Shown here: positions 6,797 to 58,308 of the stretch, in pieces | Layout: each line of letters starts with the position of its first letter | Numbering within the stretch: position 1 is the stretch's first letter | Assembly (NCBI RefSeq): GCF_000519325.1 | Contig: NZ_KI912613.1 | Span: 1,099,369-1,163,368, forward strand | Length of the DNA: 64,000 nucleotides | Source: Patulibacter minatonensis DSM 18081 | Lineage (GTDB): Bacteria; Actinomycetota; Thermoleophilia; Solirubrobacterales; Solirubrobacteraceae | Direction: 5' to 3' | The notes under the pieces: generated by a model | Told to the model about the DNA's origin: nothing | Seen by the model: the letters and a program-made list of their open reading frames with translations, nothing else | Databases searched by the model: none | Program-made: the position numbers and the translations under genes

Positions 6797-7901
6797 CTAG
6801 ATCCCGTTCGGGTCGCAGCCCTGGCCGGTGCTCGCCGCCATGCCGGAGGACGACCACTTCTGGCAGTAGACGCCCTTGTGGTACGACGCGTCGCGGTCGT
6901 ACTGCGTCAGACCGATAGACGGGTTCGCGCTGTGCGCCCCGATCGCGGACTCCGAGGAGCGCATCGCGGCCTGGAACGAGGCGATCGCCGAGCGCTGCGC
7001 CCCGTCGGCGGGCTCGAGCGCCGCGAGCTTGCGGGCGACGGCGCGGCGGTTGGTGAGCGCCGACTGGTACTGCTGGCCGACGGTCATCTGTCGCCCGCGG
7101 GCCGACTGCTGCATGAGCGCCACGAGCTGCCGGGCGACCGCCTTCTTCCTCGCCGCCTTCTGCTGGGCGGCGGTCTGACCCGCAGGGGGCGCGCCGCCCG
7201 CCGCGCCGCCGCCGGCGGACCCGCCGCCGGTCGAGGGCGTCCCGCCGTTCGCGGTCGTCCCGCCGTTCGACGGCGGCGTCGGTGCCGTGCCGGTCCCGTC
7301 CTTCGTGCCGTCGCCCCGGCCGTCGGTCTTCGTGACCTGCGCGGCCCGGTCGCCCTTGTCGTCCTTCTTGTCGTCCCCCGGCGACGCGATCAGGTAGCCG
7401 ATCACGACGGCCAGGATCAGGACGAGCGGGATCACCGCACCGAGCGCGATCCACCGGCCGCGGCCGCCGTCGCCCGAGGAGCCACCGCCCGCCGGTGCCT
7501 GCGGCGGCGCGGAGCCCCAGCCCTGCGCCGGCCCCTGCTGCTGCGGCGGGTGCGGGGTGCGCGGCCCACCGGACGGGGGTGCCCAGGCCGGCGCGTTCGG
7601 CGTGCGCGGCCGCAGGGGCGCCTGGCCGCTCTGCGGGAGCGCCTGGGTCTCGGCGGTGTCGTCCGGCCCCTGCCGCGGGCACGGGTGCGGGCGGCGTCGG
7701 GGTGCGGGGCGTCGGGGTGGGCGCGGCGCCCGCCGGTCCCGCGTAGCTCGCGCAGCCGGTGACCGCGCAGCCCTCGTTCTCGGCCCAGCACTCCGCGTGG
7801 TGCGGGGAGCCGCACGCGTCGCAGAACGTCAGCTCGACGCCCGACTTGATGGTGAAGTGGCAGTAGGGGCAGGCGGCGCCGACCGCGGATCGCGAGCTCA
7901 T
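6797..7901 (-). CDS. RING-like zinc finger membrane protein (frameshifted)
   Basis: Last gene of the Ubl operon. The ATG at 7901 overlaps the JAB stop codon as ATGA. The N-terminus has eight possible zinc ligands in a cross-brace arrangement: C11, C14, C27, C30, H34 or H35, C38, C45, C50, with the core CPYC, FCDACGSPHHAECW and GCAVTGC, matching prokaryotic RING finger family 1. A Pro-rich linker, one TM helix (about residues 151-172, WIALGAVIPLVLILAVVIGY), a Gly/Thr linker and a helical C-terminus with Cys residues follow. The coding frame changes at the CCCC run 7667-7670: removing one base gives a continuous 367-residue protein, as the 1105-base length also shows. This is either a real frameshift or a sequence error. 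A role as E3 partner is inferred from family and context. Confidence 0.75.
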
Positions 7902-8746
7902 CGGGACGGCACTCCTGGAACGGGGCGGGACGGGGACGCGCCGGGATCGGCCTTGGCGGCAGCGACCCCGCCGAAGCCGACGACCAGTCCGGCGAGGACG
8001 GCGAGCCCGACCCGCAGGCGCAGCCCGGGATCGGGTGCGGGACCGCCGGCGACGGCCGGGGCCGCGACGGACGCAGATGGGGCCGGTGCGGCCGGTGTGC
8101 CGGGCCGGGCGTAGGCGCCCGACGCCGGCTCGACCGGCAGCGCGCTCACCGGGGGCCGCTCCGGAACATCGGCGACCGCGCGGGTCACGCCCGGACCGGC
8201 CCCGCCGCCGGGCGGCGTGGTCCCGGGGCCGGCGCCGGGCGGCGGCCCGGCGCGCCGCTCGCCCTCCGGCGGGGTCCGCGCCGGGCCGCCGAGACCCTCG
8301 CGCTTCGTGTCGCGCTCGGCGAGCAGCCGGACCTCGCCCTCGCGCCAGCCGAACAGGCCCTCGGTGCCGGCCTGCGGGTCGACGACGTGGGCGATCTGGC
8401 CCTCGTTCGAGAAGAAGTTCCTCTGGATGAACGTGTCGTGGTCGGACAGGAAGATCCCGAAGCCCGGGTGCGAGTGGTACCAGCCGACGATCGCCTGGCC
8501 GGGGAAGTCACGCTCGAGCGTGGCGTGGACGGTCGACCACGCGTCGTGGGTGAACGTGACGCTCGCGCGCTCCGACGTCGCCTCGAGCGCGGCGATCGCG
8601 CCGGACACGACGGTCTCGCGGTCCGCCGCGACGATGCGGCCGACGAGCACGCCGCCGACCTCGTGGTCGGGGGAGGAGAAGACGTGCTCGATCACCGCGT
8701 CGTGGGCGACCCTCGTGATGCGGGGCCGGAAGCCGGGGGTGCTCAC
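7898..8746 (-). CDS. JAB/JAMM metalloprotease with C-terminal membrane anchor
   Basis: 282-residue putative Ubl-deconjugating isopeptidase. The JAMM set is complete: E29 in EVGGVLVG, H91 and H93 in GWYHSHPGFG, S101 and D104 in LSDHD, which would bind catalytic zinc. After the catalytic domain (1-145) comes a long Pro/Gly/Ala linker and one TM helix (about 245-264) near the C-terminus, so the enzyme is probably membrane-tethered with the catalytic domain in the cytoplasm. The GTG start overlaps the E1 stop (GTGA, 8743-8746) and the stop overlaps the RING-like gene's ATG, so translation of the three genes is coupled. Removal of the Ubl from targets is inferred from the operon. Confidence 0.9.
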   Translation of the reverse strand: MSTPGFRPRITRVAHDAVIEHVFSSPDHEVGGVLVGRIVAADRETVVSGAIAALEATSERASVTFTHDAWSTVHATLERDFPGQAIVGWYHSHPGFGIFLSDHDTFIQRNFFSNEGQIAHVVDPQAGTEGLFGWREGEVRLLAERDTKREGLGGPARTPPEGERRAGPPPGAGPGTTPPGGGAGPGVTRAVADVPERPPVSALPVEPASGAYARPGTPAAPAPSASVAAPAVAGGPAPDPGLRLRVGLAVLAGLVVGFGGVAAAKADPGASPSRPVPGVPSR

Positions 8747-10065
8747 GAGACGTCCTCCGCCGGGTTCGCGGCTGCCTGCGGTCCGGGGGCGTCCGGAACG
8801 AGCGTCGCGCCGGTGGGGCCGGGATCCGCCCCGTCGGCCGCGCTCGCCGCCCCGCCGTCGGCCGTCGCCGCCGTCAGCCGCTCCGTCAGCGACAGCGCGC
8901 CGCCGAGCACCAGGTGCCGACGCTCCAGGCCGTGCCGGGCGGTGACGACGTCCGCCGGGGCGACGCCGATCTCCGCGGGTCGCAGGCCGAGGAACTCGTC
9001 GTGCTCCGGGCGGATCGTGTGGACGAGGCGCAGGCCGAGCTCCTCGCCGCAGACCGCGCAGACCGCGTCGGGGGCCTTCAGCTCGTGCAGCGGCCGGTTG
9101 ATCGGCCGGTCGGTCTCGCACGACTCGCAGCGGCCGGAGACCGCGAGCTCCGTCTCCGTCTGGAGGGTCACGTCGTCGGTCCCCAGCAGCTCGCGTCCGA
9201 GGGTCAGGAGCTGAAGGAACGTGGCGTCCAGCGGCACGTCGCGGCTGTGCTCCGCCTCGTAGTGGTCGTGCGCCATGCACTCCTCCTGCCGCGCGTAGGT
9301 CACCACGTAGGAGTCGTGCGTGACCCCGTTGTACGCGTACCCGCGCCCGATCAGGCCCATCGGCCCGCGCTCGTGCAACAGCTTGATCGCCTCCTGGACC
9401 TGGATGCCGGCGACGATCGCCGCCGTCGTCGCGGTGGTGGGGACCTTCCCGGCCTCCATCTCGTCGCGGGAGAGCAGCGAGCACGAGCGGCGCGCGGCCA
9501 CGATCTGGTGGTCGCGCTCGCCCATCGTGCACTCGTAGCAGGGGCCCTCGTCCGGGCCCTGGTTCGGGACGAACGCGCGGGCGACGCCCTGGAGCCCCTC
9601 GATCGCGCCGTCGACCCACGGCGTGCCGACCTTCCAGCACGCCTGGTTGACGAACAGCCGGGCCTCGCGGTTGTCGAGCCCGCCGAGGACGACGTCGACG
9701 TCGCGGAAGACGCTCAGCCCGATCGTCGAGCGCACGTCGCCGTGGAGCGCGAAGAGCTCGACCTCCTCGTTGAGGTCGCGGGCGGCCTCGACGACGACCT
9801 CGGCCTTCGAGCGGCCCTCGTCGCGCGGGCGGAACAGCACGCAGCGCGACAGGTTGGAGTCCTCGATCACGTCGAGGTCGGCGACGAGGACGGTCCCGAC
9901 GCCCATCAGCACGAGGTTCTTGACGAGCTCGTTGCCGAGCGCGCCGGCGCCCACGACGAGCACGCGTGCGTCGCGCAGCAGGGACTGGTCCCACCAGGTG
10001 ATGAGCGACTGGCGGTGGTACCGGCCGTCGGTCGCCGCGACGTCGAGCGTCAGCTTGTCGGACAT
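8743..10065 (-). CDS. E1-like Ubl-activating enzyme (ThiF/MoeB fold)
   Basis: 440-residue protein. Rossmann ATP-binding loop GAGALG (39-44), DLDVIEDSNLSR (63-74), and GGLDNREARLFVNQ (128-141) are the ThiF/E1 adenylation signatures. CYEC (176-179) matches the MoeB-type zinc pair. C195 in RRSCSLL precedes the crossover-loop motif KVPTTATTAAIVAG (207-220) and is a candidate for the thioester cysteine. A C-terminal extension carries two further CxxC pairs (313/316 and 336/339), probably zinc-binding, then a disordered tail. The reaction expected is ATP-dependent adenylation of the Ubl C-terminal glycine, followed by transfer to the E2. Starts 15 bases after the Ubl gene. Confidence 0.93.
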   Translation of the reverse strand: MSDKLTLDVAATDGRYHRQSLITWWDQSLLRDARVLVVGAGALGNELVKNLVLMGVGTVLVADLDVIEDSNLSRCVLFRPRDEGRSKAEVVVEAARDLNEEVELFALHGDVRSTIGLSVFRDVDVVLGGLDNREARLFVNQACWKVGTPWVDGAIEGLQGVARAFVPNQGPDEGPCYECTMGERDHQIVAARRSCSLLSRDEMEAGKVPTTATTAAIVAGIQVQEAIKLLHERGPMGLIGRGYAYNGVTHDSYVVTYARQEECMAHDHYEAEHSRDVPLDATFLQLLTLGRELLGTDDVTLQTETELAVSGRCESCETDRPINRPLHELKAPDAVCAVCGEELGLRLVHTIRPEHDEFLGLRPAEIGVAPADVVTARHGLERRHLVLGGALSLTERLTAATADGGAASAADGADPGPTGATLVPDAPGPQAAANPAEDVS

Positions 10066-10080
10066 CTCCGCACCCGCCGG

Positions 10081-10341
10081 TCAGCCCGCGGTGATCTCGG
10101 CGACGAGCCGGAGCACGTCCCCGTCGCGGACCCCGGCGTCGGAGAGCGTCTCCTGGTCCCCGATCTGCCGGCCCGTCCGCTTGTGGTGGAACTTGTAGGA
10201 GAGCGGGACCCCGTCGGGGCCGATCGCGGGCATCTCCATGAGCTCGACCAGGCGGGCGATGATCCGGCCGGCGGCGACGGAGTCCGGGACGGTCGCGTCC
10301 TCGCTCTTGTTGCCGGTCGCGTCGATCACGATGATGTCCAT
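10081..10341 (-). CDS. YukD-like ubiquitin-like protein
   Basis: 86-residue beta-grasp protein. Strand-turn pattern MDIIVIDATG, then a helix AAGRIIARLVELMEM, then SYKFHHKRTGRQIGDQETLSDAGVRDGDVLRLV. The phrase 'L.daGV.dGDvLrLv' is typical of YukD and ubiquitin-fold proteins. It ends in Ala-Gly directly at the stop codon, so the C-terminal glycine is exposed without processing, unlike ubiquitin precursors; it is not a double Gly. Set between the E2 and E1 genes, it is the likely modifier of the system. Which proteins it modifies cannot be read from the sequence. Confidence 0.88.
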   Translation of the reverse strand: MDIIVIDATGNKSEDATVPDSVAAGRIIARLVELMEMPAIGPDGVPLSYKFHHKRTGRQIGDQETLSDAGVRDGDVLRLVAEITAG

Positions 10342-10381
10342 CAGGTGCTCCGGGGGTGCGGGGGACGGGACGTCGGGGTGC

Positions 10382-10900
10382 TCACGTGAGGTGCCCCAGC
10401 TGGAGCGACGCCTCGCGGCGCGGCAGGGGGATCCCCAGGTCGACGAGCGTCTGCAGGTCGTCGCCGGGCCGCGCGCCGACCTGGCGGGCCCACACGGTCG
10501 CGTCGTGGTCGAGCGGGTCGTCCAGGTTGAACGACTGCCAGGTGGCCAGGCGCACGACGCGGCGGACGACGTCGGCGAGGCCCTCCCCGGCGCTCCACGC
10601 GCCCAGGCAGACCGCGCCGTGGCGGCGCGGCGGCAGGATGTTCGGGTGCAGGATCGGGGTCGTCCAGCGGACGACGGGCGGCAGCCGCGGGTAGTCGCGG
10701 TGCAGGTCGACGACGGCGCGGTGGCCGTGGCGCAGCTTCGGCAGGTCGTCGGCGCCTCGCGCCAGTCCGGGGACCATCAGCGTCAGCTCGTAGCCCTCGG
10801 CCGGGTGGCCCGTGGCCTCGAACGAGATCCGCGGGTCCTGCTCGACGAGCTCCTCGAGGTTCGCGCGGTCGGCGAGGAGGCGGCGGTCGCGGGGGTTCAT
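10382..10900 (-). CDS. E2-like ubiquitin-conjugating enzyme
   Basis: 172-residue UBC-fold protein. The E2 active site is plain: HPN at 85-87 within TPILHPNILP, followed by the likely catalytic cysteine C98 in HGAVCLGAW. The spacing from the Asn to the Cys is 11 residues, slightly longer than the 8 typical of eukaryotic E2s. Preceding strands (YELTLMVPGL, RAVVDLHRDYPRLPPVVRW) follow the usual UBC meander. It would accept the Ubl from the E1 as a thioester and hand it to targets, perhaps with the RING-like protein. ATG 10900 overlaps the stop of a small upstream ORF (ATGA), indicating translational coupling. Confidence 0.92.
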   Translation of the reverse strand: MNPRDRRLLADRANLEELVEQDPRISFEATGHPAEGYELTLMVPGLARGADDLPKLRHGHRAVVDLHRDYPRLPPVVRWTTPILHPNILPPRRHGAVCLGAWSAGEGLADVVRRVVRLATWQSFNLDDPLDHDATVWARQVGARPGDDLQTLVDLGIPLPRREASLQLGHLT

Positions 10901-11055
10901 CGGCCTGACCGGGCGGACGGGTCGGACGCGAGGGCTGCGACCGGCCGACCGGCACGTCGTGGCGCGCCGGTGGAGGCGGCCCGGCGGGCCCGGTACCTCG
11001 CGGCGGTGACGCGGCGCGGCGCGGCGGGGACTGGGCGGGACGACATGGAGGGCAT
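10897..11055 (-). CDS. Small Arg-rich ORF at head of Ubl operon
   Basis: 52 codons, MPSMSSRPVPAAPRRVTAAR onwards, with 13 Arg and no acidic run; no family recognised. Support for it being translated: the stop overlaps the E2 start (ATGA); the ATG is preceded by GGTGAG; and the distance from the ATG to the GGGGTG-N8-CACCCC operator (35 nt) is nearly identical to that of the LuxR gene (36 nt, ATG preceded by GATGAG). It could be a leader peptide, a small protein factor, or simply the 5' end of the transcript. Confidence 0.45.
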   Translation of the reverse strand: MPSMSSRPVPAAPRRVTAARYRARRAASTGAPRRAGRPVAALASDPSARSGR

Positions 11056-11090
11056 CTCACCAGATCCCCGGGCCCTTGGCGACCCCTTCA

Positions 11091-11110
11091 GGGGTGAGCC
11101 GGGCCACCCC
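11091..11110. promoter_or_regulatory. Operator GGGGTG-N8-CACCCC, Ubl operon / FHA-ABC
   Basis: Inverted repeat in the divergent region between the Ubl operon and the FHA-ABC gene. The same arms and the same 8-bp spacer occur at 16994-17013 upstream of the LuxR gene, 35 versus 36 nt from the minus-strand ATG and about 100 nt from the plus-strand start in both places. Probably a binding site for a shared regulator. The other bases of this divergent region (11056-11217) hold no further signal I can name. Confidence 0.65.
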
Positions 11111-11217
11111 TCCGGCGCCCGGTCGGGCTCCCGGGGTCTGCGGCGTCCACACCTCGCCGCCCCGACGACTCCGCCGATCGGACGAATCCGGTGACGGCCC
11201 GCCCCCGCGCTGCTTGA

Positions 11218-13563
11218 ATGCCGCTCATGCGTGGCGACGCCGGACCAGATGACGTCGACGTCGTGCTCCGCTCGCGGGGCTCGGGCGTCGACGTCGTCCT
11301 GCGCCAGCCGGCGCTCCTGATCGACGGCGACCGCGTCCCGATCGGCCGCGACCGGCTCGCGGTGGACGTCGACCCGCGGTCCGGGGTGCTGACCGCGTCC
11401 ACCGGGCCCGCCGGGCCGCAGACGGTCGCCACCGTCGTCCGCGGATCCGGGCGGGTCGAGATCGAGCCGGTCGCCGGGGCCGCCGTCCGCGTCGACGGCG
11501 CCGACGTCTCCCGCCGGACGCTGGTCGGCGGCGAGCGGATCGAGGTCGCCGGGCGGGTCGTGCGGTACGTGACCGACGCGGCCGAGGACACGATGGTCGT
11601 CCCCGGCAGCACCGCGACCCCGGTCGCGACCGGCAGCCTCCGCCTGGACCGCGAGGTGCTGCGGATCGGGCGGGACCCGTCGTGCGACGTGCTGCTGGAC
11701 CACCCCGCGGTCGCGCCCGTCCACGCCGAGATCACGGCCGGCTCCCACGGGCCGCTCCTGCGCGACCGCAGCGGCCCCGGCGCCGGCGTCGCGGTCAACG
11801 GCGGACGGGTCCGCCACGCGTACCTGAACGTCGGCGACGAGCTCGCCATCGGCCCGTACCGCCTGGTCTTCGACGGCGAGGTCCTGCACCAGCACGGCGA
11901 CGCGACGAGCCTGCGCCTCGACGCCGAGGGCGTCAGCGTCACGGTCGGCGAGCGCACGATCCTCCAGCCGGTCTGGCTGACGGTCCGGCCCGGCGAGGTC
12001 GTCGCGATCATCGGCGAGTCCGGCGCCGGCAAGAGCACGCTGATGACCGCGCTCTGCGGCGTGCGTCCGGCGAGCGGCGGGCGGATCACCGTCAACGGCG
12101 AGCCGCTCGCGCAGCGCACGAGCGACCTCGGCTTCGTGCCGCAGGACGACATCGTCCACCGCGACCTGACCGTCCGCGAGGCCCTGGGCTACGCCGCCGA
12201 GCTGCGCCTGCCGCAGAGCGCACCGAAGGCCCAGCGGCAGCAGGCCGTCGAGCAGGTGATCCAGGAGGTCGGGCTCGAGGAGCACGCCGAGACCCGGATC
12301 GGGTCCCTGTCGGGCGGCCAGCGCAAGCGCGTCTCGGTCGCGACCGAGCTCGTCAGCCGGCCGGGCCTGCTGTTCCTCGACGAGCCGACGACCGGCCTGG
12401 ACTCCGGCCTCGAGCGGCGCATGATGCTGCTCCTGCGCGAGCTCGCCGACGCCGGCCGCGGCGTGATGCTCGTGACGCACGCGACGCGGAGCCTCCACCT
12501 CTGCGACCGCATCGCCGTCATGGGCCGCGGCGGCCTGACGTGCTTCATCGGCCCGCCGGCCGACGCGCTGCGGTTCTTCGGGGTGCAGGACGCCGACGAG
12601 ATCTACGAGGCGCTCGACCGCACCCCCGCCGCCGAGTGGCACTCCGCGTTCGTCGCGTCCGAGCACGCGCAGAGCACCTGGGACGGCCCGAGCCAGCCCG
12701 GCGGCCTCGGCGCCCGGCGCCGGCCGGCCGCGCTGCCGCAGTTCTTCCTCTTCCTGCGCCGCTACGCGCTCCTGACCGTCCGCGACCGCCGCACCCTGAC
12801 GACGATCGCGCTGCAGGCGCCGCTCCTCGCGTTCCTGACGGCGCTGCTCTTCAAGACCGGCGTCTTCGTCCACGAGGGCTCGCCGAAGCTCATGCGCGCG
12901 GGGCAGAGCGCGCAGGTCCTCTTCCTCGCGGTGACCGTGGTCGCCTGGCTCGGGGCGATCGGGAGCTCGCGCGAGATCGTCAAGGAACGGGCGGTGCTCC
13001 GGCGGGAGCTCGCGGTCGGCGGGCGGGTCGGCGCGTACCTCGCGTCGAAGCTCGTCCTGCTCGGGGCGCTGATGGTCGCCCAGACCCTGGCCGTCGCGGC
13101 GATCCTCTTCGTCCTGCGGCCGATGCACGAGCCGATCGGCACCCAGGCCGTCGTGATCGGCGTGCTGATCCTCAACGGGTTCGCCGCGCTCGCGACCGGC
13201 CTGGTGGTCAGCGCGGCGTCGCGCAACGAGGACCAGGCGGGCAGCCTGATCCCGATCATCCTCGTGCCGCAGCTCCTGTTCGCCGGGGCGATCGTGTCGA
13301 TCGCGCAGCTCGCCGCGCCCCTGAAGGTGATCTCCGGCCTCGCGTTCGCCCGCTGGGCGTTCGCGGGCACGGGCTCCGGGGTCGACATGAACGAGCGCCT
13401 GGCGCGCGACCCGATCACGCGGACGACGAACACCTACGGCACGGACTTCTTCTCGATCAGCCCGGCGCTGTCGATGGCGATCCTGCTCGCCTTCGTCGCG
13501 GCGCTCGCGGGCGTCACCGCGTGGCTCGTGAACACGCGCGGGCGCAAGGACGACCGGGCCTGA
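11218..13563 (+). CDS. FHA domain-containing ABCG-type ABC transporter
   Basis: 781-residue half-transporter. An N-terminal degenerate FHA-like region (about 20-120) is followed by a clear FHA domain (about 140-220: LRIGRDPSCDVLLDHPAVAPVHAEI cut here into its GRD and H elements). The ABC ATPase has Walker A GESGAGKS (266-273), signature LSGGQRKRVS, and Walker B GLLFLDEPTTGLDS. The C-terminal part (about 510-775) holds six hydrophobic segments of ABC2 type, the ABCG/White arrangement. Phosphothreonine reading by the FHA domain suggests control by a Ser/Thr kinase such as the one encoded next. Divergent from the Ubl operon with a shared operator. ATG 11227 is an equally possible start. Substrate unknown. 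Confidence 0.92.
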   Translation: MPLMRGDAGPDDVDVVLRSRGSGVDVVLRQPALLIDGDRVPIGRDRLAVDVDPRSGVLTASTGPAGPQTVATVVRGSGRVEIEPVAGAAVRVDGADVSRRTLVGGERIEVAGRVVRYVTDAAEDTMVVPGSTATPVATGSLRLDREVLRIGRDPSCDVLLDHPAVAPVHAEITAGSHGPLLRDRSGPGAGVAVNGGRVRHAYLNVGDELAIGPYRLVFDGEVLHQHGDATSLRLDAEGVSVTVGERTILQPVWLTVRPGEVVAIIGESGAGKSTLMTALCGVRPASGGRITVNGEPLAQRTSDLGFVPQDDIVHRDLTVREALGYAAELRLPQSAPKAQRQQAVEQVIQEVGLEEHAETRIGSLSGGQRKRVSVATELVSRPGLLFLDEPTTGLDSGLERRMMLLLRELADAGRGVMLVTHATRSLHLCDRIAVMGRGGLTCFIGPPADALRFFGVQDADEIYEALDRTPAAEWHSAFVASEHAQSTWDGPSQPGGLGARRRPAALPQFFLFLRRYALLTVRDRRTLTTIALQAPLLAFLTALLFKTGVFVHEGSPKLMRAGQSAQVLFLAVTVVAWLGAIGSSREIVKERAVLRRELAVGGRVGAYLASKLVLLGALMVAQTLAVAAILFVLRPMHEPIGTQAVVIGVLILNGFAALATGLVVSAASRNEDQAGSLIPIILVPQLLFAGAIVSIAQLAAPLKVISGLAFARWAFAGTGSGVDMNERLARDPITRTTNTYGTDFFSISPALSMAILLAFVAALAGVTAWLVNTRGRKDDRA

Positions 13564-13659
13564 GGCCGGCACCCGGCCCTCCTGGCGGACCGCCGTGATC
13601 CGCCGGTCGGTCGTCCGACGGCCCGGCGCTCACCGTGGCCGGGTGGACGCGGGCGGCGG

Positions 13660-15717
13660 TCAGCCCCCGCGCTTCAGCGACCCGGCGACGCGCACCGCGG
13701 ACGCCTGGGCCTCGTCCGCCGTCGGGGCGACCGCGAAGACCGACCAGCCCGGGCCCTTCGCCCCCGCGTTCTGCCGGACGGTGACGCAGGTCCGGCCCTC
13801 GGTCGTGCACCCGAGCGCGGACGGCCCGCGGGACGCGTCGTAGCGCCAGCCGGTGTTGCCGTTGCCGAGCTCGATCTGGTTGCGGCCCGTCTTCGGGATC
13901 AGGACCTTCTCGCCGCTCGTGTAGTCGACGACGATCGCCCGGCCCCCGGGACCCTTCTGCAGCACCCGGTGGAGCGTCGGATCGTCGACCTTCGACGTCC
14001 GGGGCGTCCCCCAGCCGGCCTCTGCCGCCGGGAGCGTGCCCGTCCAGCGGTTCTTCGGCGCGGTGAACGTCCGGGCGGTCGCGCCGGGCGGGAAGCTCCC
14101 GTCGGCCTCGTCCTTCGTCCCGTCGACCACGAGGTAGGCGACGGCCCCGGCGACCAGGAGGACGACGAGCACGCCGAGCAGCAGCCGGCGCCGGACGCGG
14201 CGCTCCGCGGCCCGGATCTCGTCGCGGCGCCGGGCGAGGATCGCCTCCGACGGCCCGCGGCGCTCGCCGGCCTTCGGACGGACGACCGGTGGCGGGACCA
14301 CCTGCGCCGGACGCAACGGCTCCCGGGGCGCGGGGACGGGGGCGCGGGCGCGCTCGGCGAGCGGCTGGTCCTCCGCACCGTCCTCGTCGCGTCCCGCGGC
14401 GGCCGCTGCGGCACGGCGCAGCGCCGCCGGCGAGCCGGGCTTCGCGGGGACCGGCTTCCGCGGCCGGTCGTCGGGGCCCGACCCGGGCGGACCGTCGTCG
14501 TCCGCGGACGCGCCCGTGCCGGGGCCGTCCACCGCGTCGGCGGCCGCACCGCCCACGGCGGCCGCCCCACCGGCGGCGGTCGTGCGGTCCGCCGGCCGCA
14601 ACGCTCCCCCGACCGGGGGCGGACCATGGTCGGGCGCGCCGTCCGCGCCTCCGACGGGCGAGGGGTCGTCCCCGTCCGGCCGGTCCGTGCCGGCGTCGAC
14701 GTGCCCGTCCGCAGCGTCGGCCGGCGGCGCCGAGGCGGGACCGGCCCCGGGTGCCGCACGCGACCGCAGGACGACCTCGACGAGCGACTCCTCGGCGGGC
14801 CCGTCGGCGATCGTCGCGTCGTCGTCGCCGCCGAGCTGGGTCCCGAGCGAGACGCCCGCCACCGGGCGGGTCGACTCCACCCGCCGGAGCGCCGCGGCGG
14901 CCGCGCTCGCGAAGTCCCCCGCCGTCGGGTACCGGTCCTTCGGGTCGACCGCGAGCCCGCGGGCGATCACCGGGTCGAACGGCGAGAGGCCCTCGACCCG
15001 CAGGCTGGGGCGCGGGCGCGGGGCCCGGACGTGCGCGGCCAGGCGGGTCGCGGTCGTGCCCGTGAACGGCGGCGCGCCCGTCAGCGCGGTGAGCAGCGTC
15101 GCGGCCAGGGCGTAGACGTCCGCGCGCGCATCGGTGTCCTGCTGCTCGATCGACTCGGGCGCCAGGTAGTCGATGCTGCCGACGACCATCCCGGAGACCG
15201 TGAGGTCGTTCGAGGCGTCGATCTCCTTCGTCAGGCCGAAGTCGCCGAGCAGCGCGACGGTCCGGCCCCCGCGCTGCGCCAGCAGCACGTTGGCGGGCTT
15301 CACGTCGCGGTGCAGCACCCCGAGCTCGTGCGCGTGGTCCAGGCCGGCGGCGACCTGCTCGATCACGGCGACCGCCTCGGCGGGCGGGAGCGGGCCGCCG
15401 TGGTCGCCGATCCGCGTGCGGAGGTCGGCGCCGTCGACGTACTCCATGGCGATCCACGGGCGGTCGTCGGACTCCCCCGCGTCGTAGACCGTGACGACGT
15501 TCGGGTGGTCCAGCCGGGCGGCGAGCCGGGCCTCGCGCGCGAAGCGCCTGCGGAACGACTCCTCCTGCGCGCGCTCGACGGAGAGGACCTTGAAGGCGAC
15601 CTTCCGGCCGAGCTCGACGTGCTCGGCCCGGAAGACGACGCCCATGCCGCCGCGACCGATCGGTGCGTCGATCCGGTAGCCGTCGATGAGCTCGCCAGGG
15701 CGGGGTTCGTGCGTCAC
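13660..15717 (-). CDS. Transmembrane Ser/Thr protein kinase
   Basis: 685-residue Hanks-type kinase from GTG 15717; a GTG at 15759 gives 14 more residues. Kinase domain about 10-275: glycine loop IGRGGMGVVF, AFKV lysine, catalytic loop HRDVKPAN, GDFGLTKE, and GSIDYLAPE. A long Pro/Ala/Asp-rich linker (about 290-480) is followed by a basic segment, a TM helix (LLLGVLVVLLVAGAVAYLVV) and an extracytoplasmic domain of about 140 residues containing two Cys (GCTTEGRTC), with no PASTA repeats. It probably senses something outside the membrane and phosphorylates FHA partners; FHA proteins flank it on both sides. Convergent with the FHA-ABC gene and divergent from the FHA-HTH gene. Confidence 0.93.
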   Translation of the reverse strand: MTHEPRPGELIDGYRIDAPIGRGGMGVVFRAEHVELGRKVAFKVLSVERAQEESFRRRFAREARLAARLDHPNVVTVYDAGESDDRPWIAMEYVDGADLRTRIGDHGGPLPPAEAVAVIEQVAAGLDHAHELGVLHRDVKPANVLLAQRGGRTVALLGDFGLTKEIDASNDLTVSGMVVGSIDYLAPESIEQQDTDARADVYALAATLLTALTGAPPFTGTTATRLAAHVRAPRPRPSLRVEGLSPFDPVIARGLAVDPKDRYPTAGDFASAAAAALRRVESTRPVAGVSLGTQLGGDDDATIADGPAEESLVEVVLRSRAAPGAGPASAPPADAADGHVDAGTDRPDGDDPSPVGGADGAPDHGPPPVGGALRPADRTTAAGGAAAVGGAAADAVDGPGTGASADDDGPPGSGPDDRPRKPVPAKPGSPAALRRAAAAAAGRDEDGAEDQPLAERARAPVPAPREPLRPAQVVPPPVVRPKAGERRGPSEAILARRRDEIRAAERRVRRRLLLGVLVVLLVAGAVAYLVVDGTKDEADGSFPPGATARTFTAPKNRWTGTLPAAEAGWGTPRTSKVDDPTLHRVLQKGPGGRAIVVDYTSGEKVLIPKTGRNQIELGNGNTGWRYDASRGPSALGCTTEGRTCVTVRQNAGAKGPGWSVFAVAPTADEAQASAVRVAGSLKRGG

Positions 15718-15830
15718 GGAGAAGGCGCTCGCGGTGGGATCGCCCGCGATCGTGCGCACAGTCTGCCGCAGACGGGCGATCCGGGGTGATCGTGAACGGC
15801 GTCGCCCGGCGACTATCCTCGGCCCCGGTC

Positions 15831-16523
15831 GTGTCCGACTCCTCCCCGCATCCCCAGCGCGGCCTCGAGCTCGAGGCCGTCCAGCGCCACGAGCGGCTCG
15901 GCCGGCCGTTCCTCACCTTCCGCCCACCCGGCGGCGACCTGCAGATCGCGCTGCTGCCGGAGGACGCCGCGGCGCAGACGATCGGCCGCCGTGCCGGGCA
16001 GCTCGTCGCGCTGGAGTGGGACGCCCGCGTGTCCCGCGTCCACGCGCGGCTCGAGGCCCTCGCGGACTCGTGGTGGGTCGTCGACGACGGCGTCTCCACC
16101 AACGGCACGTTCGTCGGCGCGGAGCGCGTCGCGGGCCGGCGGCGCCTGGAGCACGGGGACGTCCTGGTGCTCGGCGGGTCGAGCGTGGCGTTCCACGACC
16201 CGACGCCGGCGGGCCTGTCGATGACGATCGAGGCGAGCGGGCTCCTCGCGCCGCCGACCCTGACCCCGGCCCAGCGGCGGGTGCTCGACGCGCTCTGCCG
16301 CCCGTGCCGGCCGGGCGTCGTCGCGGCGCCGGCGACGAACCAGCAGATCGCCGCGGAGCTCGTGGTCGGCGTCGACGCGGTGAAGACCCAGATGCGGAGC
16401 CTGTTCACCGCGCTGGGCGTCGGGGACCTGCCGCAGAACCAGAAGCGCGCCCGGGTGGTCGAGCGCGCGTTCGAGCTGGGCATGGTGCGGCCGGACGGCA
16501 CGCCGGAGCGGGACGGGGCCTGA
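15831..16523 (+). CDS. FHA domain protein with LuxR-like C-terminal helix pair
   Basis: About 230 residues from GTG 15831, which lies 11 nt after a TATCCT box at 15814-15819; a GTG at 15786 gives an extra 15 residues. FHA domain about 35-125: TIGRRAGQLVALEW, RVSRVHARLE, and VDDGVSTNGTFVG are the phosphothreonine-binding loops. The C-terminal part 'LTPAQRRVLDALCRP' and 'TNQQIAAELVVGVDAVKTQM' looks like a LuxR/response-regulator helix-turn-helix. It would link kinase output to transcription, either by binding DNA or by binding phosphorylated partners. Start uncertain, family call firm. Confidence 0.85.
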   Translation: MSDSSPHPQRGLELEAVQRHERLGRPFLTFRPPGGDLQIALLPEDAAAQTIGRRAGQLVALEWDARVSRVHARLEALADSWWVVDDGVSTNGTFVGAERVAGRRRLEHGDVLVLGGSSVAFHDPTPAGLSMTIEASGLLAPPTLTPAQRRVLDALCRPCRPGVVAAPATNQQIAAELVVGVDAVKTQMRSLFTALGVGDLPQNQKRARVVERAFELGMVRPDGTPERDGA

Positions 16524-16539
16524 CGGGACGGTGTGCCCG

Positions 16540-16612
16540 GGGCGGGACCCCCGGACGGCGGGACGGGACGGGACGGCGGGACGGCGGGACGGGACGGCGG
16601 GACGCGTGGGCG
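16540..16612. repeat. Short tandem repeats of GGGAC/GGGACGGC
   Basis: Between the FHA-HTH stop and the LuxR stop the plus strand is an irregular tandem array of GGGACGGC and GGGAC units (clearest at 16559-16612). It is a convergent intergenic space with no coding potential. Slippage-prone simple sequence; may also act as transcription terminator. Confidence 0.6.
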
Positions 16613-16627
16613 GGACACCGCCGGTGG

Positions 16628-16957
16628 TCAGGCGACGCGGCGCAGTCCGCCGCGGGCCTCGGGGGCGGCGCGCCGGGCCGGCGGGAACAGCGGCACGATG
16701 CCGGCGCGGAGGGCGCCGACCGCGAGGCCGGTGCGGGTGCGGACGCCGAGCGCGTCCATCGCCGTGGCGAGGTGCGACTGCACGGTGCGCGGCGAGAGGT
16801 AGAGCCGGCCGCCGATCTCGGCGTTCGTGAGGCCCTCGACGAGGAGGGTCACGACCTGGAGCTCGCGGACGGTGAGCTCCGGGACGTCCTTGAACGACGG
16901 GACGGCGGTCAGGGTGGCGGGGGCGGTGGGGGATTCGAGCGTCTGCATGGGATGCAT
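16628..16957 (-). CDS. Single-domain LuxR family regulator
   Basis: 109 residues, essentially one LuxR/NarL helix-turn-helix: ELTVRELQVVTLLVEGLTNA, EIGGRLYLSPRTVQSHLA, then MDALGVRTRTGLAVGAL. There is no receiver, sensor or ATPase domain, so activity must depend on its level or on a partner. ATG 16957 is chosen because it follows GATGAG and is spaced from the upstream operator as in the Ubl operon; a second ATG is at 16948. It is a candidate for the protein that binds GGGGTG-N8-CACCCC, both at its own promoter and at 11091. Confidence 0.85.
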   Translation of the reverse strand: MHPMQTLESPTAPATLTAVPSFKDVPELTVRELQVVTLLVEGLTNAEIGGRLYLSPRTVQSHLATAMDALGVRTRTGLAVGALRAGIVPLFPPARRAAPEARGGLRRVA

Positions 16958-16993
16958 CTCATCGCCGGGACGCCCCCGCGGACAGGCCCCAGA

Positions 16994-17013
16994 GGGGTGG
17001 AGCGGACCACCCC
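16994..17013. promoter_or_regulatory. Operator GGGGTG-N8-CACCCC, LuxR / DUF2510
   Basis: Second copy of the operator seen at 11091-11110, in the divergent region between the LuxR gene and the DUF2510 membrane protein at 17112. Arms are 7 bp here (GGGGTGG / CCACCCC). Location 36 nt upstream of ATG 16957. Confidence 0.65.
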
Positions 17014-17111
17014 CCGGATCGCTTGAAGGCCCCGGGGGCGAGCGCCATGATGCGTCTCGTGTCCGTCCCCACCAGCCCCCGCCCAGCTCCGAGCACCGAC
17101 GGGGTGCGGGC

Positions 17112-17678
17112 ATGAGCGCCGCGTACCGGACCGGTCCGGGGGCTTCGGCGGTCCGCGCCACCATCGCCACCGTCGCCGCGCTGATGTTCGTCGTCCAGGT
17201 GGTCGCCATCGTGTCGAACGGCGACTACTGGCGGTACGCGGGCACCGGCGGCGACGTCAGCCTCGTCCTCACCGCCGTGTCGTTCCTGGTGCTCGCCGGG
17301 ATCGCGGTGGCGAGCCTCGCACTGCACCGCATCACGTCGGACCTGGTCCTGCTCGCCGCGGGGGGCTGGTCGCTCGCGTGGGCCTACTCGACCGGCCCGT
17401 CGGTCCTCCCCCTCGCGCTCGACGCGGACTCCGTCGAGTGGTACGTCTGGGTCCTGGCCGGGTTCGGGCTCCTGCTCGCCATCGTCTCCGCCGCGCTCCT
17501 CCTGGTCATCATCAGCGGGCTGTCGGCCCCCCGCGAGGTCCAGGCGAGCTCCGCCGCATCCAGCGTCGGGAGCCCGACCGTCCCCCCCGGCTGGCACACC
17601 GACCCCGGCGGCGCTCCCGGCAAGGAGCGCTGGTGGGACGGCTCGACCTGGACCGACCACCTCCGCGACGCGCGATGA
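17112..17678 (+). CDS. Four-TM membrane protein with C-terminal DUF2510
   Basis: 188 residues. Four hydrophobic segments between about residues 18 and 140, then a short linker and a C-terminal DUF2510 module, PPGWHTDPGGAPGKERWWDG followed by STWTDHLR, a WW-like Trp-rich motif common in actinobacterial membrane proteins. Function of the module is not established. The ATG follows a GC-rich stretch without a strong ribosome binding site. It precedes a second DUF2510 protein by 43 bases on the same strand, so the two probably form one operation unit with the genes up to 19318. Confidence 0.8.
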   Translation: MSAAYRTGPGASAVRATIATVAALMFVVQVVAIVSNGDYWRYAGTGGDVSLVLTAVSFLVLAGIAVASLALHRITSDLVLLAAGGWSLAWAYSTGPSVLPLALDADSVEWYVWVLAGFGLLLAIVSAALLLVIISGLSAPREVQASSAASSVGSPTVPPGWHTDPGGAPGKERWWDGSTWTDHLRDAR

Positions 17679-58053: not shown

Positions 58054-58308
58054 CGCGGCCCATGGTCCCTGAGCCGGAGGGTCACCACAAGGTCGGTGTC
58101 CCGAACCACCCGGGGTGATCCCGGTGCGGGGCGATGCGGGCTCACCCCTCCCGCCCGCACCGTCCTCCTCGTTCCCCGGAACGCCCGGCCCGTCGCTCCG
58201 GCGCGCCGGACCATCCCTCCGCCGGCCCCGGCCGGCACGCGTCGCCACGGCCCCGCCCGTCGGCGGGCGGGGCCCGCGACGACCCCACCCCGAACCCCGA
58301 GGATCCTC
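58054..58308. promoter_or_regulatory. Divergent region with CACCC-N-GGGTG palindrome
   Basis: Between the MalT-type gene and the permease gene. CACCCGGGGTG (58107-58117) is a perfect 11-bp palindrome about 54 bases before the minus-strand start. A GGGGTGAGCC half-site (minus strand, 58148-58139) resembles one arm of the GGGGTG-N8-CACCCC operator at 11091. No other signal recognised. Confidence 0.5.

Follow-up and report, generated by a model that had tools for sequence, protein, structure and literature searches.

A GGGGTG-N8-CACCCC dyad with fixed promoter geometry as a predicted activator operator of a ubiquitin-like conjugation operon and a single-domain LuxR gene

Introduction

Sites of the LuxR/TraR type are boxes of about 20 bp that are centred at about -42, and the proteins that recognise them carry a signal-binding domain. 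The inverted repeat described here resembles these boxes in being a dyad of about 20 bp near the -35 region that would suit a dimer of GerE domains, but it is centred at about -54.5 and its first candidate binder is a bare helix-turn-helix (HTH).

The available portion of a study of Corynebacterium glutamicum describes RamA, a LuxR-type regulator whose binding sites are GGGG/CCCC motifs, including at a promoter that is leaderless (PMC4847777). RamA thus shares with our locus a GerE-type HTH, a G-run motif, an actinobacterial host and a leaderless promoter; in the same portion, however, its motifs are single runs rather than a 20-bp dyad, and at bca it acts as a repressor (PMC4847777). RamA is also longer, at about 280 aa (the NCBIfam model length), and contains more than the HTH, whereas the protein encoded here is a bare HTH that matches the RamA model only through the general HTH (24 bits against a cut-off of 500). 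A second comparison is offered by CsoR, whose operators, in the extracts available to us, are G/C-rich dyads of CCACCCC and GGGGTGG (PMC10318464). Their arms follow the opposite order (CCCACCCC...GGGGTGG), and the operator of Mycobacterium tuberculosis overlaps the -35 and -10 elements (PMC10318464); since a CsoR operator needs the CCACCCC arm first and the GGGGTGG arm second, which is reversed here, we rejected this assignment.

One of the genes downstream of the dyad belongs to a ubiquitin-like (Ubl) conjugation operon. Iyer et al. (2006; PMC1779556) described prokaryotic operons that unite genes for Ubl, E1-like, E2-like and JAB proteins, and the same gene set lies in one operon here. In the part of that survey available to us, the YukD proteins of actinobacteria are membrane fusions that belong to ESAT-6 loci, and a free YukD-type Ubl with its own E1, E2 and JAB genes, as found here, is not among the cases (PMC1779556). 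No paper on the operator itself was found among open-licence papers, which does not prove that there is none. The dyad promoters form a small and sharply defined set on which control of a bacterial ubiquitin-like conjugation operon could be tested, and they would show cleanly how an activator-type site is positioned with respect to leaderless start codons.

Results

The window, a 64,000-nt stretch of the Patulibacter minatonensis DSM 18081 genome, contains the inverted repeat GGGGTG-N8-CACCCC at 11091-11110 (operator 1, GGGGTGAGCCGGGCCACCCC) and at 16994-17013 (operator 2, GGGGTGGAGCGGACCACCCC), exact at both of the places named in a preliminary description of this DNA; neither is assigned to a strand, and both belong to a genome-wide family. 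The arms do not extend past 20-22 bp, both sites lie between divergent genes and upstream of both, and no Rfam match was found in 10300-17400. Over the home genome (5.52 Mb, one contig) there are 10 exact copies and one match to the reversed pattern, a frequency above expectation that bears out the earlier suggestion that the agreement is unlikely to be due to chance. With at most one mismatch, GGGGTGGWCCGNNCCACCCC occurs four times in forward and four times in reverse orientation, against control counts of 0 and 0, and the tight form GGGGTGG-N6-CCACCCC has five copies against no control match. Each of the 145 other genomes of the family has 0-1 copies of the tight form (six genomes have one), while its reversed control has a single match in each of eight of them. 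Hence, the enrichment is a feature of this one species. Allowing two mismatches within the window gave no enrichment (8 matches against a shuffle mean of 9.46); the signal resides in the exact and tight forms, not in the two-mismatch form.

Three of the 10 exact copies were left out of the geometry tests: L004 and L010, which are intragenic, and L007, which lies 56 nt before a gene and differs in its inner letters. The seven dyads that were kept (the two window sites, L003, L005, L006, L008 and L009) are all upstream of genes. It appears very improbable that, instead of being bound by a protein, the dyad is an RNA hairpin, such as a terminator, or an interspersed repeat. Some copies do suit this reading: one (L027:9160) lies about 100 bp past a stop codon, where a terminator role is possible, single copies in four other genomes (G015, G136, G137 and G065) are intergenic with no start nearby, and several of the records retrieved from a genome collection are longer hairpins or repeat arrays. 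Sites 1 and 2, however, have non-extending arms, keep a fixed distance to the -10 element and the ATG, and adjoin divergent gene starts instead of the gene 3' end expected of an intrinsic terminator; for these two sites we rejected it. For most copies in other genomes, a terminator or repeat is likely. The collection scan with GGGGTGGTSCGSWCCACCCC returned nine records (the home genome was possibly omitted), of which three, from one Frankiales assembly, are repeat-like longer dyads and others are longer hairpins or intragenic. Outside the home genome, therefore, the string is mostly something else. The repeats of the Frankiales assembly (L241, L243, L244) centre on GGGGTGGTGCGCACCACCCC and have additional inverted arms at several positions.

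The seven dyads, each with two sides, share a promoter geometry. An element of the form NANNNT, taken as the -10, begins at +33 from the dyad edge in six of the 14 flanks; no other offset exceeds two of 14, and a best-offset count of six was reached in none of 20,000 shuffles, a test that corrects for the offset, the NANNNT form being our choice. Seven of the 14 flanks carry TG at +10/+11, and an ATG starts 44 nt from the edge in four and 45 nt from it in one more. Such an ATG would be the first codon of the transcript, with TACGGT, CAGGAT or GAGGCT at -12. Of 137 predicted genes of the home genome that have 60 nt or more of free DNA upstream, 24 carry TANNNT at -12 or -13 relative to the start codon, and few carry it elsewhere; hence, leaderless transcripts are common in this genome, and many transcripts of the dyad promoters would be leaderless. 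At L005 and L006 the -10 is still at +33 and the start codons come later (64 and 74 nt), a layout that would fit short-leader transcripts.

The composite dyad-N44-ATG has three exact matches at three further loci. Site 1 matches it with one mismatch, and allowing two mismatches adds five places, of which one (L044) was left out, having none of the other promoter features. The composite of dyad, TG and NANNNT has five exact matches, and both sides of site 2 match at one mismatch. With up to three mismatches the counts exceed the controls modestly (36 against 19 and 38 against 14, respectively), and true and chance matches become inseparable, so the regulon is probably small.

The dyad is over-represented in the genome and keeps the same distance to promoter elements from one independent locus to the next, as expected of an activator operator. 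We predict that a dimeric transcription activator uses it (consensus GGGGTGGNCCGNNCCACCCC) as an operator with fixed promoter geometry, a reading to which we assign a probability of about 0.68. The dimer would bind from -64 to -45, just upstream of the -35, and would recruit RNA polymerase where the -35 is poor (CTGKYC) and the -10 has the form NANNNT. Activator sites usually stand at one fixed spacing upstream of a poor -35, and it is because the dyad lies wholly upstream of such an element at a single spacing that we read it in this way. The same placement makes a repressor operator improbable, even though dyads can be repressor sites and luxR could be autorepressed.

At site 1, this layout is present on the minus side only. 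The possible -35, TCGCCA (minus strand, 11077-11082, +9 to +14 from operator 1), is weak, and the possible -10, TGAGAT (minus strand, 11054-11059; TGTGAT in the congener G002), is one base off the shared position. Downstream lies an ORF of 49 aa (minus strand, 10897-11046), whose start is 44 nt from the operator and whose stop overlaps the start of the E2 gene (ATGA). Domain matches identify the genes that follow on this strand as an E2-like ubiquitin-conjugating protein (UQ_con, 10382-10900), a YukD-family Ubl of 86 aa (10081-10341), an E1-like ThiF protein (8743-10065) and a JAB protease (7898-8746). Operator 1 would thus serve the Ubl operon through a leaderless leader ORF from ATG 11046, which would be coupled to the E2 gene by the 4-nt overlap. 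Leader ORFs of 49 codons (window 10897-11046) and 20 codons (L246, 1442-1504) both overlap an E2 start by 4 nt, a possible case of translational coupling. Beyond the JAB gene, a gene at 6797-7901 (minus strand) encodes a RING-like Cys/His region at its start, and after about 150 nt the codon statistics favour a different frame, indicating a frameshift that is either real or due to sequencing.

On the plus side of site 1, the FHA-ABC transporter gene (11218-13563) begins 107-116 nt from the dyad. The gene has a -10 of its own, TTGAAT at 11214-11219, and a probable leaderless start at 11227, which places the dyad about 126 bp upstream, out of the shared geometry; operator 1 is misplaced for this gene. 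TTGAAT is conserved in G002, where 12 of the 14 bases before the start agree. The proposal that one operator is shared by the two loci thus holds in part: enrichment and geometry join the Ubl-operon promoter to the LuxR and DUF2510 promoters, but the link to FHA-ABC is not borne out.

Site 2 shows the promoter layout on both sides. On the minus strand, comparison of the flanks points to a -35-like CTGTCC (16980-16985) and a -10-like TGAGAT (16956-16961) before the gene of a single-domain LuxR (GerE) protein at 16628-16948, which has 106 aa from ATG 16948 and 109 aa from ATG 16957. On the plus strand, the same comparison points to a -35-like TTGAAG (17023-17028), followed after 17 bp by a -10-like CATGAT (17046-17051, +33 from operator 2), a start near 17058 and then a DUF2510 gene (17112-17678, domain match). 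Operator 2 therefore probably serves both directions, and it would switch on luxR and the DUF2510 gene together. Beyond luxR lie genes for a protein with an FHA domain and a LuxR-like HTH (FHA-HTH; plus strand, 15786-16523, start perhaps 15831), a candidate regulator, and for a Ser/Thr protein kinase (minus strand, 13660-15759, domain match).

From the dyad edge, the minus-strand ATGs lie at 35 and 44 nt at site 1 (44 being ATG 11046) and at 31, 36 and 45 nt at site 2 (45 being ATG 16948). The agreement of 35 and 36 nt that was first pointed out is real, but the spacing common to the other loci is 44 nt, or 45 nt at site 2. On the plus strand, the supposed distance of about 100 nt to both starts corresponds to 107 or 116 nt at site 1 and 98 nt at site 2. 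We propose 11046, 16948 and 11227 as corrected gene starts.

The dyad would define a regulon of about ten promoters. Built from nine hand-chosen promoters, a profile run against the home genome recovered those nine; beyond them it matched position 2363201 at E 0.010 and, at E 0.043, the plus side of site 2, neither of which had been used to build it. Downstream of the dyad promoters lie the Ubl operon, luxR and the DUF2510 gene, as well as genes for a 136-aa protein that precedes two kinases, a DUF4232 protein, one small protein, several probably exported proteins (judged by eye) and a GST_N-like protein. A half-site that had been noted upstream of the MalT-type gene (58139-58148) is present but does not rise above chance: by our estimate, chance alone would place a 10-base string of such composition about once in 64 kb, two strands counted, and the nearest partner arm, 22 nt away, is not at the correct spacing. 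Upstream of the same gene, GGGGTGA and TCACCCC stand 22 nt apart (58113-58148), a spacing unlike that of the operator.

Discussion

Which protein would bind the dyad is a separate question, and a GerE-type regulator (LuxR/NarL superfamily) appears most likely. The 106-aa LuxR protein, which would control its own gene, ranks first at slightly below even odds. It contains a GerE HTH (PF00196, 50.5 bits against a cut-off of 23.5) and nothing more, and its gene carries operator 2 at its own promoter. A relative in G002 (58% over 69 aa) has a neighbour on each side, and these are 67% and 84% identical to the genes that bracket the two-dyad locus here; the dyad is absent from that G002 locus.

It is possible, if less likely, that an FHA-HTH protein under the neighbouring Ser/Thr kinases binds the dyad and that luxR is merely one target. 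Such a protein combines an FHA domain with a GerE-like HTH. The window FHA-HTH has no Pfam GerE match at 0.01 and its paralogue matches at E 0.0013, below the curated cut-off; a profile comparison with the LuxR set supports the HTH at 96% probability. The home genome has two FHA-HTH genes at E<=1e-15 and a third, weak match at 8.8e-4; each of the first two adjoins kinase genes and has a dyad no more than about 0.5 kb away. Several genomes of genus g23 also have a dyad resembling GGGTGG-N6-CCACCC in the gap between FHA-HTH and the gene that diverges from it, and such dyads occur near FHA-HTH in L142 and L149. Against this, neither home-genome FHA-HTH gene has a dyad in its own promoter; FHA-HTH is found in 55 of the 146 family genomes whereas enrichment of the dyad is confined to one; the g23 loci, being orthologues, are not independent; and 40 loci from other genomes (34 with a recognised FHA-HTH gene) gave 12 dyads at up to two mismatches against 5 in the control. 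Dyads near FHA-HTH in G015, G136 and G141 were discounted as support, two of the three being intergenic without a nearby start. In genus g23 the GGGTGG-N6-CCACCC-like dyad is conserved at L118, L080, L082, L083, L086 and L088; at L118 its distances to the FHA-HTH gene and to the divergent neighbour are each about 65-70 nt.

It is unlikely that the dyad is bound by an unlinked regulator whose sites have GTG-N8-CAC geometry, such as one of the Crp/Fnr type. GTG-N8-CAC is the arm spacing of Crp-type sites, and the linked candidates, LuxR and FHA-HTH, are both only putative binders; however, a centre at -54.5 is unusual for Crp, whose sites lie at -41.5 or -61.5, and an unlinked protein would leave the linkage of the dyad to luxR and the FHA-HTH genes unexplained. 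We suggest that FHA-HTH proteins or the bare LuxR HTH may read Ser/Thr-kinase signals. A fuller circuit is improbable, in which Thr kinases encoded next to two FHA-LuxR-HTH proteins would set the dyad binding of these proteins, alone or paired with the small LuxR, and thereby switch on a few envelope proteins as well as the Ubl operon, the latter through its leaderless, translationally coupled leader ORF.

The E2 gene occurs in four of the 146 family genomes, and G002 is the only congener with it among eight genomes of the genus (75% identical). Conservation upstream of orthologous genes in relatives, which would support an operator without defining it, was found neither at the G002 E2 promoter, where the dyad is absent, nor in a profile search of 15 other genomes, which stayed near background except for G015 (E 6.5e-4), where the match lies between convergent gene ends. 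The dyad wiring is thus unconserved in the closest relative with the Ubl operon. The counterpart of the leader ORF in G002 has 20 codons and likewise runs into the E2 start (GTGA); upstream of its own start, 16 of 22 bases agree with the window in an ungapped comparison made by hand from the start codon; automatic alignment did not align these blocks. Near the same place, the G002 E2 promoter has another dyad, TCCCTC-N4-GAGGGA, and a second dyad with 6-base arms falls within the same 197 bp; since 6-base arms are common, we gave TCCCTC-N4-GAGGGA no weight. E2-like genes near YukD-type Ubl genes were also seen in two further genera (L247 and L249 in G136, L248 in G058), with extra E2-like and other proteins encoded between the E2-like and Ubl genes.
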